This document shows positions 8,562-53,357 of a stretch of 64,000 bases of DNA, piece by piece. Source of the stretch: Brevundimonas sp. (GTDB taxonomy: Bacteria > Pseudomonadota > Alphaproteobacteria > Caulobacterales > Caulobacteraceae); the NCBI RefSeq assembly GCF_027487935.1, contig NZ_JAIYCP010000005.1, forward strand, positions 62,001 to 126,000, written 5' to 3'. A program made the translations under genes and the position numbers. The notes beneath the pieces are model-generated. The model was not told the origin of the DNA and did no database searches. It saw only the letters and a program-made list of their open reading frames with translations. Within the stretch, counting starts at the first letter, position 1, and each line of letters opens with the position of its first letter.

Positions 8562-9131
8562 ATGGCAAAAATCAACGGCAACAACATCAAGCCCGGCATG
8601 GTCCTTGAGCACAACAAGGGCCTTTGGGTCGTGACCAAGGCCAGCCACGTCAAGCCGGGCAAGGGCGGTGCCTTCGCCAACATCGAGGCCAAGAACCTCG
8701 AAACCGGCAACAAGCTGAACGAACGCTTCCGCTCGGAAGACAAGGTCGAGCGCGTCACGCTGGAACAGAAGGAGTTCTCCTATCTGTACGAGCAGGGCGA
8801 CGCCCTGGTGTTCATGGATGACGCCACCTACGAACAGACCGAGCTGCAGAAGGACTGGGTCGGCGAGGACCGCGTCGCCTACCTCCAGGACGGCATGAAG
8901 GTCGTCATCGAGATGCACGAGGACCGTCCGATCGGCCTGACCCTGCCCGACCAGGTCACGCTGGAAGTCGTCGAGACCGAGCCCACCGTGAAGGGCCAGA
9001 CCGCCTCTTCGTCCTACAAGCCGGCCATCGCCAACAACGGCGTCCGCATCATGATCCCGCCCTATATGGGCGTGGGTGAGCGGATCGTCGTCGACACCAC
9101 GACGGGCGAATACGTCCGGCGCGCTGAGTAG
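8562..9131 (+). CDS. efp: elongation factor P
   Basis: [43 protein letters not shown]. Confidence 0.97.
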
Positions 9132-9205
9132 GGCTTAGAAATTAGGGCTTAGGGCTTAGGGCTCGGAACCGCCTGCTTCCTAAGCCCTAAGCCCCAAGCC
9201 CTACC
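9129..9205. repeat. Inverted arrays of a heptamer (TAGGGCT)n ... (AGCCCTA)n downstream of efp
   Basis: TAGGGCT TAGAAAT TAGGGCT TAGGGCT TAGGGCT then CCTAAGC CCTAAGC CCCAAGC CCTACC. Confidence 0.85.
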
Positions 9206-9274: not shown

Positions 9275-10078
9275 ATGGCCCTCGCCTCTGCCCTCGTTTC
9301 CGTCATGATCGACGCGGTCCGCAAGACCGCCCGGCCGATGCTGCGCGACTTCGGCGAGGTCGCCCAGCTGCAGGTGTCGCGCAAGGGTCCGGGCGACTTC
9401 GTCACCGCTGCCGACATCAAGGCCGAGGACACCCTGTTCGAACTGCTGATGAAGGCCCGCCCCGGCTACGGCTTCCTGGGCGAGGAGCGCGGCCTGATCG
9501 AGGGGACCGACAAGTCCCATATGTGGATCGTCGACCCGATCGACGGCACCACCAATTTCATGCACGCCATGCCGCATTTCGCGATCACGGTAGGCCTGCA
9601 GCGCACCGCCCCGGACGGCAGCTCCGAGATCGTGGCGGGCGTCACCTACAACCCCGTCATGAACGAGCTGTTCTGGGCCGAAAAGGGCAAGGGCTGCTAT
9701 CTGAACGACACCCGGATCAGGGTCGCCGCGCGCCGTGACCTGTCGGAAAGCCTGATCGCCACCGGCCTGCCCTTCATCGGCAAGACCGGCCACGCCCAGG
9801 CCATCAAGGACCTCCACGCCATCGGCCAGCGCGTCGCCGGCATTCGCCGTCTGGGCTCCGCCGCCCTCGACTTCGCCTGGGTCGCGGCGGGGCGCTACGA
9901 CGCCTTCTATGAACGCAACCTCCAGCCCTGGGACGTGGCGGCCGGCATCCTGTTCGTCACCGAGGCGGGCGGCATCGTCACCACCATCGACGGCGAGGGC
10001 CGCCCCGAGACGGGCGCCCAGATCCTGGCCACGAACTCGGACCTGCATCCGCAGCTGCTGAAGGTGTTGCGGGGGTAG
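9275..10078 (+). CDS. suhB: inositol monophosphatase family protein
   Basis: GEERGLIEG, WIVDPIDGTTNFMHAMPHFAITVGL, WDVAAGILFVTEAGG. Confidence 0.9.
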   Translation: MALASALVSVMIDAVRKTARPMLRDFGEVAQLQVSRKGPGDFVTAADIKAEDTLFELLMKARPGYGFLGEERGLIEGTDKSHMWIVDPIDGTTNFMHAMPHFAITVGLQRTAPDGSSEIVAGVTYNPVMNELFWAEKGKGCYLNDTRIRVAARRDLSESLIATGLPFIGKTGHAQAIKDLHAIGQRVAGIRRLGSAALDFAWVAAGRYDAFYERNLQPWDVAAGILFVTEAGGIVTTIDGEGRPETGAQILATNSDLHPQLLKVLRG

Positions 10079-47539: not shown

Positions 47540-47789
47540 TTAGTTGACGAAAGTTAACCTCAATTGGGGCAAGCAGAACTGCAACGGCGTGAACAGAGAC
47601 AGAACATCCCCAGTATTAACAGCCTGTGGGCCAATCCTGCGCCGCATTCGGGGCCAAGGGGTTAACAGAAGCGGAAGGGCCGACACCGGTCGCGGGGCCC
47701 GATACGACGCAGCCCGGGTCAAGTCGGAGGCTGACGATGCGCTCAAGCAGCGAGCCGCCGCGCGGCGAGCGTTAGCGCCCAAAAATTAT

Positions 47790-48170
47790 GTCAGACGGCC
47801 TGTAAGCCGGGTTCTGTACCGTCCGGAGACGGTGACGATCATTCCTCTGGACCGCCCGTTGCCGGACGGTTCTCGCGACCTACCCGGACGCCTCGGGCGG
47901 TGAACCCTGCGAGCAAGCTCGCGCGACGTCCCTATTCGGTCTTGCTCCAGGCGGGGCTTGCCATGCCGTCCCTGTTACCAGGCACGCGGTGGGCTCTTAC
48001 CCCACCCTTTCACCCTTCCCTGCCCCGAGGGGCAGGCGGTTTGCTTTCTGTGGCGCTATCCCTCGGGTCACCCCGGGCGGGCGTTACCCGCCGCCTCTTC
48101 ACCGTGGAGCCCGGACTTTCCTCGACGAGGGCAAAACCCCCGCCGCGACCGCCCGGCCGTCTGACGCGGC
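47790..48170 (-). ncRNA. rnpB: RNase P RNA (boundaries approximate)
   Basis: Minus strand: GTCAGACGGCCGGGCGGTCGCGG...GAGGAAAGTCCGGGCTCCACGGTG...GGGTAACGCCCGCCCGGGGTGACCCGAGGGATAGCGCCACAGAAAGCAAACCGCC...ACAGAACCCGGCTTACAGGCCGTCTGAC. Confidence 0.95.
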
Positions 48171-51861: not shown

Positions 51862-51905
51862 CGCCGGCAGCGTTCGGGACTCCCCTGCCCGCAGGGAGAC
51901 CGATC

Positions 51906-52184
51906 ATGGCACGAATGCTTCAAGGCCTGCAGTGGCTGCTCTTCGCCCTCTATGCGGTGGCGGGTGCCGTCGCCCTGCTGATTGCCACCCCCGCCGGACT
52001 GAAGCTGCTGGGCCAGCCCGAAGGTATGCTGACCTTCCTGCCGGCGAAGATCCTCGGCCTGCCCTGGAGCCTGCCGCTGTGGTTCATGGATGACGGGCCG
52101 ATCACAGCCCTGGCCGTGCTGGGCATCTGCTACGGCATGAACCTCGGCGTCGGCATGATGCTGGTGCGGCGTTCCCGGGGCTGA
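51906..52184 (+). CDS. small membrane protein of unknown function
   Basis: Two hydrophobic segments, intact ORF MARMLQGLQWLLFALYAVAG. Confidence 0.55.
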   Translation: MARMLQGLQWLLFALYAVAGAVALLIATPAGLKLLGQPEGMLTFLPAKILGLPWSLPLWFMDDGPITALAVLGICYGMNLGVGMMLVRRSRG

Positions 52185-52188
52185 GCGA

Positions 52189-52333
52189 GTGGCTGGTGGC
52201 GAGTGGCTAGTGGCTGGTGGCTGGTGGCTAGTGAAGAGCTGCAGGCGACGATGACTAATGGACAAGGGCTGGCGTGATGGGCGGATGGGCCCGCCCCTCA
52301 CCAATCACCCGCCACCAATCACCAGCCACCCAG
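52189..52333. repeat. Inverted arrays of a heptamer (GTGGCTR)n ... (CACCANN)n between convergent genes
   Basis: GTGGCTG GTGGCGA GTGGCTA GTGGCTG GTGGCTG GTGGCTA GTGAAGA ... CACCAAT CACCCGC CACCAAT CACCAGC CACCCAG. Confidence 0.85.
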
Positions 52334-52339
52334 ACCGCA

Positions 52340-53146
52340 TCAGCGCCCCAGATCATACACCCCCGTGATGTCGATCCGCACCGTCAGCTGGCCGGCCGCG
52401 ACCGGGGTCGAGCCGCCCGAATCCATGGCCATCTCCGCGCGGGCGAACATCAGCTGCGGCGGGGGCGCATAACCGCCGCCCTCCGACAGCGACCGGATGC
52501 CGGCCAGTTCCACGCCCAGGGCCTGTGCATAGAGGGCGGCCTTGGCCTGCAGATTGCGCACGGCGATCTGACGGGCCTGATTCTCGGCCGCCGACGGATC
52601 CTTCAGGCCGAAACCGATGCCGTTGATCTGGTTGACACCCGCCGCGACCACGGCATCGGCCGTCGTCCCCACCTTCGTCAGGTCATTGATGATCACCGTC
52701 ACCTGGTTCGAGGCCTGATAGCCGCGCAGCCGGGGCGGCTCGTTCTGGATATAGTCATACTGGGCCGACAGGTTCAGGCCCGAGGTCTGGACGTCGCGGG
52801 CCTCTATCCCGGCGCGGCGCAGGGCGGCCATGACCTGGTTCATCCGCGTCGCATTCAGCTGCATGGCCTCGGCGGCAGTGGTCGCCTCGGTGACCACGCC
52901 GAAGCTGATCGTGGCCATGTCCGGCGCGGTCCGGACCTCGCCATATGCCGACAGGTTCAGGGCCGGCGGGGCCGCCACGGCGTGCATCATCATCGGTGCG
53001 CCACCGGACGGCTGCGACTGGGCGTGCGCGGCCGGAGCGGCGGCGAACAGGGCGGCGGTGGCCATCATGGCACCGCCCAGCATCAGCACGCGGTTGGACA
53101 GGGCCGGAGCGGCGCAAACCCGGGCAGTGGCCTTGGAACGGATCAT
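52340..53146 (-). CDS. SIMPL (DUF541) domain periplasmic protein (start reassigned; ORF track extends to 53269)
   Basis: Signal peptide; LNLSAYGEVRTAPDMATISFGVVTEATTAAEAMQLNATRMNQVMAALRRAGIEARDVQTSGLNLSAQY. Confidence 0.88.
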   Translation of the reverse strand: MIRSKATARVCAAPALSNRVLMLGGAMMATAALFAAAPAAHAQSQPSGGAPMMMHAVAAPPALNLSAYGEVRTAPDMATISFGVVTEATTAAEAMQLNATRMNQVMAALRRAGIEARDVQTSGLNLSAQYDYIQNEPPRLRGYQASNQVTVIINDLTKVGTTADAVVAAGVNQINGIGFGLKDPSAAENQARQIAVRNLQAKAALYAQALGVELAGIRSLSEGGGYAPPPQLMFARAEMAMDSGGSTPVAAGQLTVRIDITGVYDLGR

Positions 53147-53357
53147 CTCGTGAAAACTCCTCGAAGCGGACGGCGGGCGTTGCACCCGAAGCTGGGCGAC
53201 AACCATGGCACCACCTTGACCGTCTGCACCTGAATGAACGCGCGAACTGCCCCGACAGGTTCCATTCATCGCGGTGAAATCGCCGTCACACTGGCGGCGG
53301 TTCGATGACGCTTGGCAATGCTCGGGCTCGCCTGCTAGGCGGGACCGTCGTCCCGGA

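Follow-up and report, generated by a model that had tools for sequence, protein, structure and literature searches.

Paired, inverted heptamer arrays after stop codons in Brevundimonas: a dispersed repeat class with constant polarity and changing units, and a possible bidirectional hairpin at gene 3′ ends

What is a pair of inverted seven-base repeat arrays doing in the narrow gap between two convergent genes of a Brevundimonas genome, and does it stand alone there? The window analyzed here (the whole stretch of 64,000 nucleotides, G000:C21:62001-126000) comes from an assembly of 2.65 Mb in 34 contigs, referred to below as G000; positions given without a contig are those of the window. A preliminary description had placed an inverted heptamer array at 52189-52333, and direct reading together with Tandem Repeats Finder confirmed that it is real. 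The left, G-rich arm (52188-52233, forward strand; about 6.6 copies of AGTGGCT) reads AGTGGCT GGTGGCG AGTGGCT AGTGGCT GGTGGCT GGTGGCT AGTG, for which Tandem Repeats Finder reported a period of 7, 6.6 copies, 84% match, and a score of 64 (a period of 21 scored 78). A spacer or loop of about 65 bp follows (52234-52298), in which we found neither a T-tract terminator nor a match to the core sequence discussed below. The right, C-rich arm (forward strand, from 52299 to 52330 or 52333) consists of five CACCNNN units, CACCAAT CACCCGC CACCAAT CACCAGC CACCCAG, mainly of the CACCAAT/CACCAGC type and complementary to GTGRYTG; it was detected at a period of 14 with a score of 57. Pairing between the two arms (GTGRYTG against GTGGCTR) is possible only with G-U wobbles and mismatches.

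On the left, an 89-aa ORF without a Pfam match (51915-52184, forward strand) ends in a TGA stop (52182-52184), and the left arm starts 3 bp further on; on the right, the arm ends 6 bp from the stop of a SIMPL/DUF541 gene on the opposite strand (52340-53269; Pfam PF04402, E = 3.5e-59), homologues of which were present in 41 out of 41 genomes searched. Since the arms adjoin both stops, the pair fills the convergent intergenic gap. As RNA, the locus folds with -81.7 kcal/mol, a z-score of only -1.7 against dinucleotide shuffles, since any sequence that combines a G-rich and a C-rich part folds well. A companion locus in the same window (9129-9205) folds more clearly (z = -4.7): its left arm (9129-9163, forward strand), five copies of TAGGGCT, overlaps the TAG stop of the upstream elongation factor P gene (8562-9131, forward strand), its right arm is made of CCTAAGC units (9179-9205, forward strand), and an inositol monophosphatase-family gene (9275-10078) is co-directional with the elongation factor P gene. 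A search of the window against Rfam at the gathering threshold returned RNase P and tRNA only, and no known RNA family at the array. The RNase P RNA lies on the reverse strand at 47787-48164 (RF00010, 308 bits), where it is overlapped by spurious ORFs.

When 464 kb were scanned de novo (the window and a further 400 kb from two other contigs; periods 4 to 12, score of at least 14), 23 arrays with a period of 7 emerged and locally shuffled sequence yielded none, so the class supposed in the preliminary description withstood the comparison with shuffled sequence; periods 4, 5, 6, 8, 9, 10, 11, and 12 gave 0, 0, 4, 0, 5, 0, 0, and 7 arrays in the same 464 kb. Over the whole genome, GTGGCTNGTGGCTNGTGG had 86 + 84 = 170 matches against 1 + 4 = 5 for its reversed control, and TTAGGGCTTAGGGCTTAGGG had 141 against 13 for the reversed pattern (at most two mismatches, overlapping registers included). 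Scan and pattern counts both exceed their controls, and period-7 arrays are therefore far commoner than chance. The pattern GGGATTNGGGATTNGGG with two mismatches was set aside as uninformative, its control being as high as its signal. The idea that the GTGGCTR unit is private to the queried locus was rejected, as the genome holds dozens of copies; the TTAGGGC unit of 9129-9205 is likewise dispersed over dozens of loci. Unusually long TTAGGGC arrays were seen at C29:7-96 and C31:26193-26275 in G000; since the former sits at the start of its contig, assemblies may break at long arrays, whose number would then be underestimated.

We catalogued 47 loci in sampled stretches of G000, with genes called by a self-trained gene caller. 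Two unit families dominate, GTGGCTR and GGGCTTA/GGGATTA: the GTGG-type units are GTGGCTA, GTGGCTG, GTGGTTA, and GTGGCGA, and the GGG-type units are GGGCTTA and GGGATTA, with GGGTCGA and TGGGGTG as local variants. All 81 detected arms obey one order, the G-rich arm to the left and the C-rich arm to the right, and each strand therefore reads G-rich first. A strong complementary partner exists for 72 of the 81; moreover, the two arms at a locus have more 7-mers in common than do arms exchanged between loci of the same family (z = 2.6 and 3.5), and they form better duplexes than exchanged ones do (z of about -1.9 and -3.2). In 21 out of 21 usable co-directional loci an arm lies between -24 and +17 bp from the stop of the upstream gene (median 5), closer than to the next start codon (median 25 bp; Wilcoxon p = 4e-4). 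Enrichment was also seen for convergent gaps (odds ratio 3.3, p = 7e-4, for a set of loci taken partly from stretches chosen by pattern). The arrays of G000 thus form a genome-wide, dispersed class with a period of 7, inverted pairing, G-rich-first order, and a position at gene 3′ ends.

Orthologous sites in relatives reveal how readily the units change. The site 52184-52340 contains a pair with GGTGATT/GGTGGTT units in G012, whose SIMPL protein is 90% identical, and a related pair in G020; in G009, G018, G024, and others it contains a simple hairpin with flanking A- and T-tracts. The preliminary description had seen in the two loci of the window one architecture with a variable unit, and this was borne out: both are inverted heptamer pairs after stops, and at 9129-9205 GGGCTTA units in G000 correspond to GGTGGTT units in G012, with both arms changed. 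Elsewhere (C13:17724, C13:21990, C13:145656, and C13:130156) the spacer is kept and the arms differ in unit or length. In both G000 and G012, an intact intrinsic terminator makes up the spacer of C13:130156; as this spacer holds a classical terminator, the arms are not needed for termination there. G012's own unit, GGTGRTT, matches 108 times in that genome, compared with 7 times for the control; the two species thus differ in unit genome-wide. Such unit change at fixed sites is consistent with slippage and templated copying between arms, the generating process proposed at the outset.

At some sites the heptamer pairs are swapped with other hairpins: C14:45716 corresponds to a T-tract terminator in G009 and to a different palindrome in G012, and C13:28831 and C14:40646 correspond to different inverted repeats in G012. 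For C13:64430 and C14:2222, the site in G012 is empty and shows no obvious hairpin. Other intergenic palindromes, of types such as CTCCCCATC...GATGGGGAG and TTCTCCCA...TGGGAGAA, share slots with the arrays and stand in place of heptamer pairs in the G012 orthologues of C13:28831 and C14:40646 and in the G000 orthologue of G012:135181 (L287). At the C14:2222 site, empty in the closer relative G012, G009 has a heptamer pair with AGTGGCG units; a de novo scan of 120 kb of G009 found no arrays. In G012:C1, an extra gene, whose protein resembles the SIMPL family by eye, lies in the gap (L084, orthologous to 51862-51910 of the window) that separates panD from the orthologue of the 89-aa ORF.

The layout extends beyond the genus. 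An exact scan for three GTGGNNN units, 45-75 bp, and three CCACNNN units gave at least 118 stretches; the matches listed come from Acidobacteria, Gemmatimonadetes, Planctomycetes, Bacteroidetes, Firmicutes, Chloroflexi, Proteobacteria, and others, and among them the two arms are usually of one unit (GTGGAGA with TCTCCAC, for example), which varies by genome. Thirty-five such genomes have 443 G-first pairs vs 1 C-first pair, a count that includes overlapping registers and comes from genomes preselected for at least one G-first pair; the less conditioned checks agree with this polarity (the 81 out of 81 arms above, and 67 AGGG-type pairs vs 0 for the reversed, C-first control in 399 Pseudomonadota genomes). 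The sole C-rich-first pair, at G480:C62:13375-13461, has CCACCAG units followed by GTGGCT units. For co-directional loci of other phyla among the listed matches, a crude ORF call put the arm at a median of 6 bp from the stop; for 42 of the 118 listed, the call placed the locus within an ORF, a situation that so crude a method cannot resolve.

What, then, might these pairs do? Our leading reading, to which we give a probability of roughly 0.45, is that the queried locus belongs, as a single copy, to a widespread class of heptamer pairs after stop codons, which may act as an RNA hairpin at the 3′ ends of transcripts from both directions. A transcript arriving from either side would carry the G-rich arm and then the C-rich arm, which would fold into a long stem closing the 3′ end of the mRNA; the stem would serve as a bidirectional 3′-end element that blocks 3′ exonucleases, helps termination, or does both, and is distinct from the classical U-tract terminator. 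Slippage of units would lengthen and change the arms, and copying from arm to arm and from locus to locus would preserve their match. A dispersed, core-bearing element would be the ancestor of about half of the GTGG loci, with the queried locus as a core-less member of the class. The position of the arrays, their pairing, and the terminators and palindromes found in the same slots of relatives favor such a putative 3′-end hairpin working in both directions. Canonical terminators were found at 1 of 37 array gaps vs 31 of 223 (one-sided p = 0.04, two-sided 0.06, a borderline difference), a shortage expected if arrays are substitutes for them. TTTT within 12 nt after the arm was found for only 2 of 88 arms, and the arrays are therefore not ordinary intrinsic terminators; the classical intrinsic terminator was rejected as an explanation, the U-tract after the stem being absent. 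A symmetric hairpin function leaves the constant G-rich-first order unexplained, and polarity is the least explained fact about the class; its source could be the mode of array growth, or a need for the G-rich RNA to emerge first.

The strongest competitor, a quite possible one, is that the arrays are neutral or selfish DNA, which would arise by slippage at small palindromes, be copied between arms and loci, and be tolerated after stops without any 3′-end function. The extensive turnover of length and unit at orthologous sites would suit this, as would the empty orthologous sites, the patchy occurrence of GTGGCT arrays within the genus (16 of 61 genomes), and the dispersal of the core-bearing element, with its 27 copies in G000. 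Purifying selection could explain why arrays are fewer near starts and in divergent gaps, and Rehm et al. found no regulatory role for comparable repeats (PMC4692102). Harm avoidance alone, however, does not account for a polarity of 81:0 and 443:1, and it leaves the recurrence of hairpins and terminators at the same sites unexplained.

Polarity might also come from the way in which arrays grow. It is conceivable, though improbable in our judgment, that a polar process, dedicated or intrinsic, builds these arrays as a pan-bacterial class by adding G-rich 7-mers toward the center of the element on both strands, and that a genome's current unit overwrites old sites, gradually and in both arms. 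Slippage of the G-rich nascent strand at a hairpin would be one candidate for such a process, and a telomerase-like reverse transcriptase related to DRT10 another; DRT10 is a known bacterial precedent of tandem-repeat synthesis (PMC12632851). Inner units are indeed more uniform in G000 (p = 0.02), but not in G012, and across phyla the tendency is slightly reversed; growth toward the element center is thus not supported in general.

Another candidate is the G-quadruplex regulator proposed for GGGNATC repeats in Xanthomonas and Nostoc, in which at least four G-tracts after the stop would act in the sense RNA or the non-template DNA. Both transcripts do have the G-rich strand first, as a sense-RNA quadruplex requires, telomere-like GGG-type units (TTAGGGC) occur in the same genome, and GGGAATC and GGGGAYT repeats form quadruplexes in vitro (PMC4692102). 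Yet the queried locus, about half of the loci, and many GTGGNNN arrays elsewhere contain GG runs only, so that a three-tetrad quadruplex is impossible at GTGG loci and quadruplexes cannot define the class; a complementary arm would also be superfluous, and a strong partner is present for 72 of 81 arms. We thus regard a quadruplex at the queried locus as unlikely, judging by its GG runs, and as an explanation of the class quite implausible.

We give equally little weight to a non-autonomous transposable element (MITE- or REP-like) that would have the heptamer arms as its inverted ends and be moved by a transposase in trans, although part of the class does look copied. A homologous core of about 65 bp (consensus GTGATTGCnGCTTCnCTGnCGGCGGAAGGGCGGCGC...) is present in 13 of the 23 GTGG-type loci of G000, and also lies between arms in Brevundimonas and Caulobacteraceae records. 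By a sequence model, G000 has 27 core copies, G012 14, G020 10, G042 28, G045 20, G061 37, and G073 15, that is, 10-37 copies in mostly array-rich genomes; the 54 other genomes of the genus have at most three matches each, mostly weak. A good part of the class has therefore spread by copying. On this sequence comparison we accepted a shared-spacer element for the 13 GTGG loci, which combine a conserved body with terminal inverted repeats as MITEs do; this combination is absent from the queried locus. That all arrays are copies of one such element was rejected for the queried locus and most GGG-type loci. The earlier view that the array is not a copied mobile element consequently stands for the queried, core-less locus and fails for the class. 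Against a transposable element as the general explanation, the shared core is missing from the queried locus and from almost every GGG-type locus, G024 has 20 array matches and only one weak core match, and orthologous copies of one element differ in unit and in the length of their arms. The compared sites, which gave no clean pair of empty and filled sites, showed no target-site duplication. The core is mostly flanked by GGTGRTT arms in G012 and by GTGGCTA arms in G000, orthologous copies included (for example, G012:320571, L286, and G012:797408, L107), so the arms evolve faster than the core, on both sides together. Among 17 cores no compensatory changes were found (covariation term -0.07).

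Rho-dependent termination, in which the C-rich arm, poor in G and with a pyrimidine-C dimer recurring at 7-nt intervals, would give each strand a Rho loading site, is the least probable: the outer 35 nt of the C arms, summed over loci, do contain 738 C and 196 G, but the arm is constantly distal to the stop, beside the opposing gene, where a loading site is expected to be proximal and the role therefore fits poorly, and its complement precedes it and would sequester it.

Compared with known systems, the kind of repeat is not new. Rehm et al. (2015) described GGGNATC/GGGGAYT heptameric G-rich repeats in Xanthomonas and Nostoc, which are heterogeneous (2-26 copies), dispersed, intergenic, and located within tens of bp after stops (sense) or before starts (antisense); each Xanthomonas genome has 70-75 convergent inverted pairs, at sites kept between species with varying length (PMC4692102). 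The suggestion that the inverted heptamer layout was undescribed is thereby overturned. Like those repeats, the queried array is made of heterogeneous tandem 7-bp units, G-rich on one strand, and the arrays of G000 are intergenic, near a stop on the sense strand or before a start on the antisense strand. Its unit differs, being GTGGCTR with GG runs only in place of G-tracts of at least three, and the GGG-type loci of G000 have GGGCTTA/GGGATTA; further differences are that nearly every array of G000 is paired, that several unit families occur together, and that polarity across phyla, unit swaps at orthologous sites, and a core in a subset are seen.

In the SPADE survey, heptamers rank first in abundance among the intergenic tandem repeats of prokaryotes, and its authors see no clue to what they do (PMC6344855); the arrays of G000 resemble these in period, intergenic position, and presence in many species, while inverted pairing, polarity, and position at stop codons do not appear in the passages of the survey consulted here. 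The regularities reported here (polarity, placement at gene ends, matched arms, unit exchange, and shared slots) turn a vague abundance into testable predictions, which concern 3′-end formation and the way genomes rewrite short-repeat sequence. REP/BIME elements are likewise dispersed intergenic inverted repeats with suspected roles in termination and mRNA stability, and they are single palindromes of 20-40 bp tagged with GTAG or CGTC (PMC3733652); the queried locus has tandem heptamers and no such tagged palindrome. Intrinsic bidirectional terminators share the hairpin fold and fill the same convergent gaps in relatives, but the arrays have no U-tract after the stem (the 2 of 88 arms above), and their stem and loop are much longer and imperfect. 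The TAACTGA repeats of Beggiatoaceae, with 169 sets, one of them indirect (PMC4679880), are also intergenic heptamer arrays, in numbers well over a hundred; unlike the inverted pairs of G000, they are direct and AT-rich.

In the literature searched, to which most subscription journals do not belong, we found no description of this layout in Caulobacterales. The kind is already known from the repeats of Rehm et al. and the SPADE heptamers; what is new, as far as that literature shows, is that several unit families coexist in one genome, that polarity is near-absolute across phyla, that units are exchanged at fixed sites, that arrays occupy slots also used by terminators, and that one subfamily carries a core. 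The GG-only units are new as well, and they argue against G-quadruplexes as the defining feature of such heptamer arrays.
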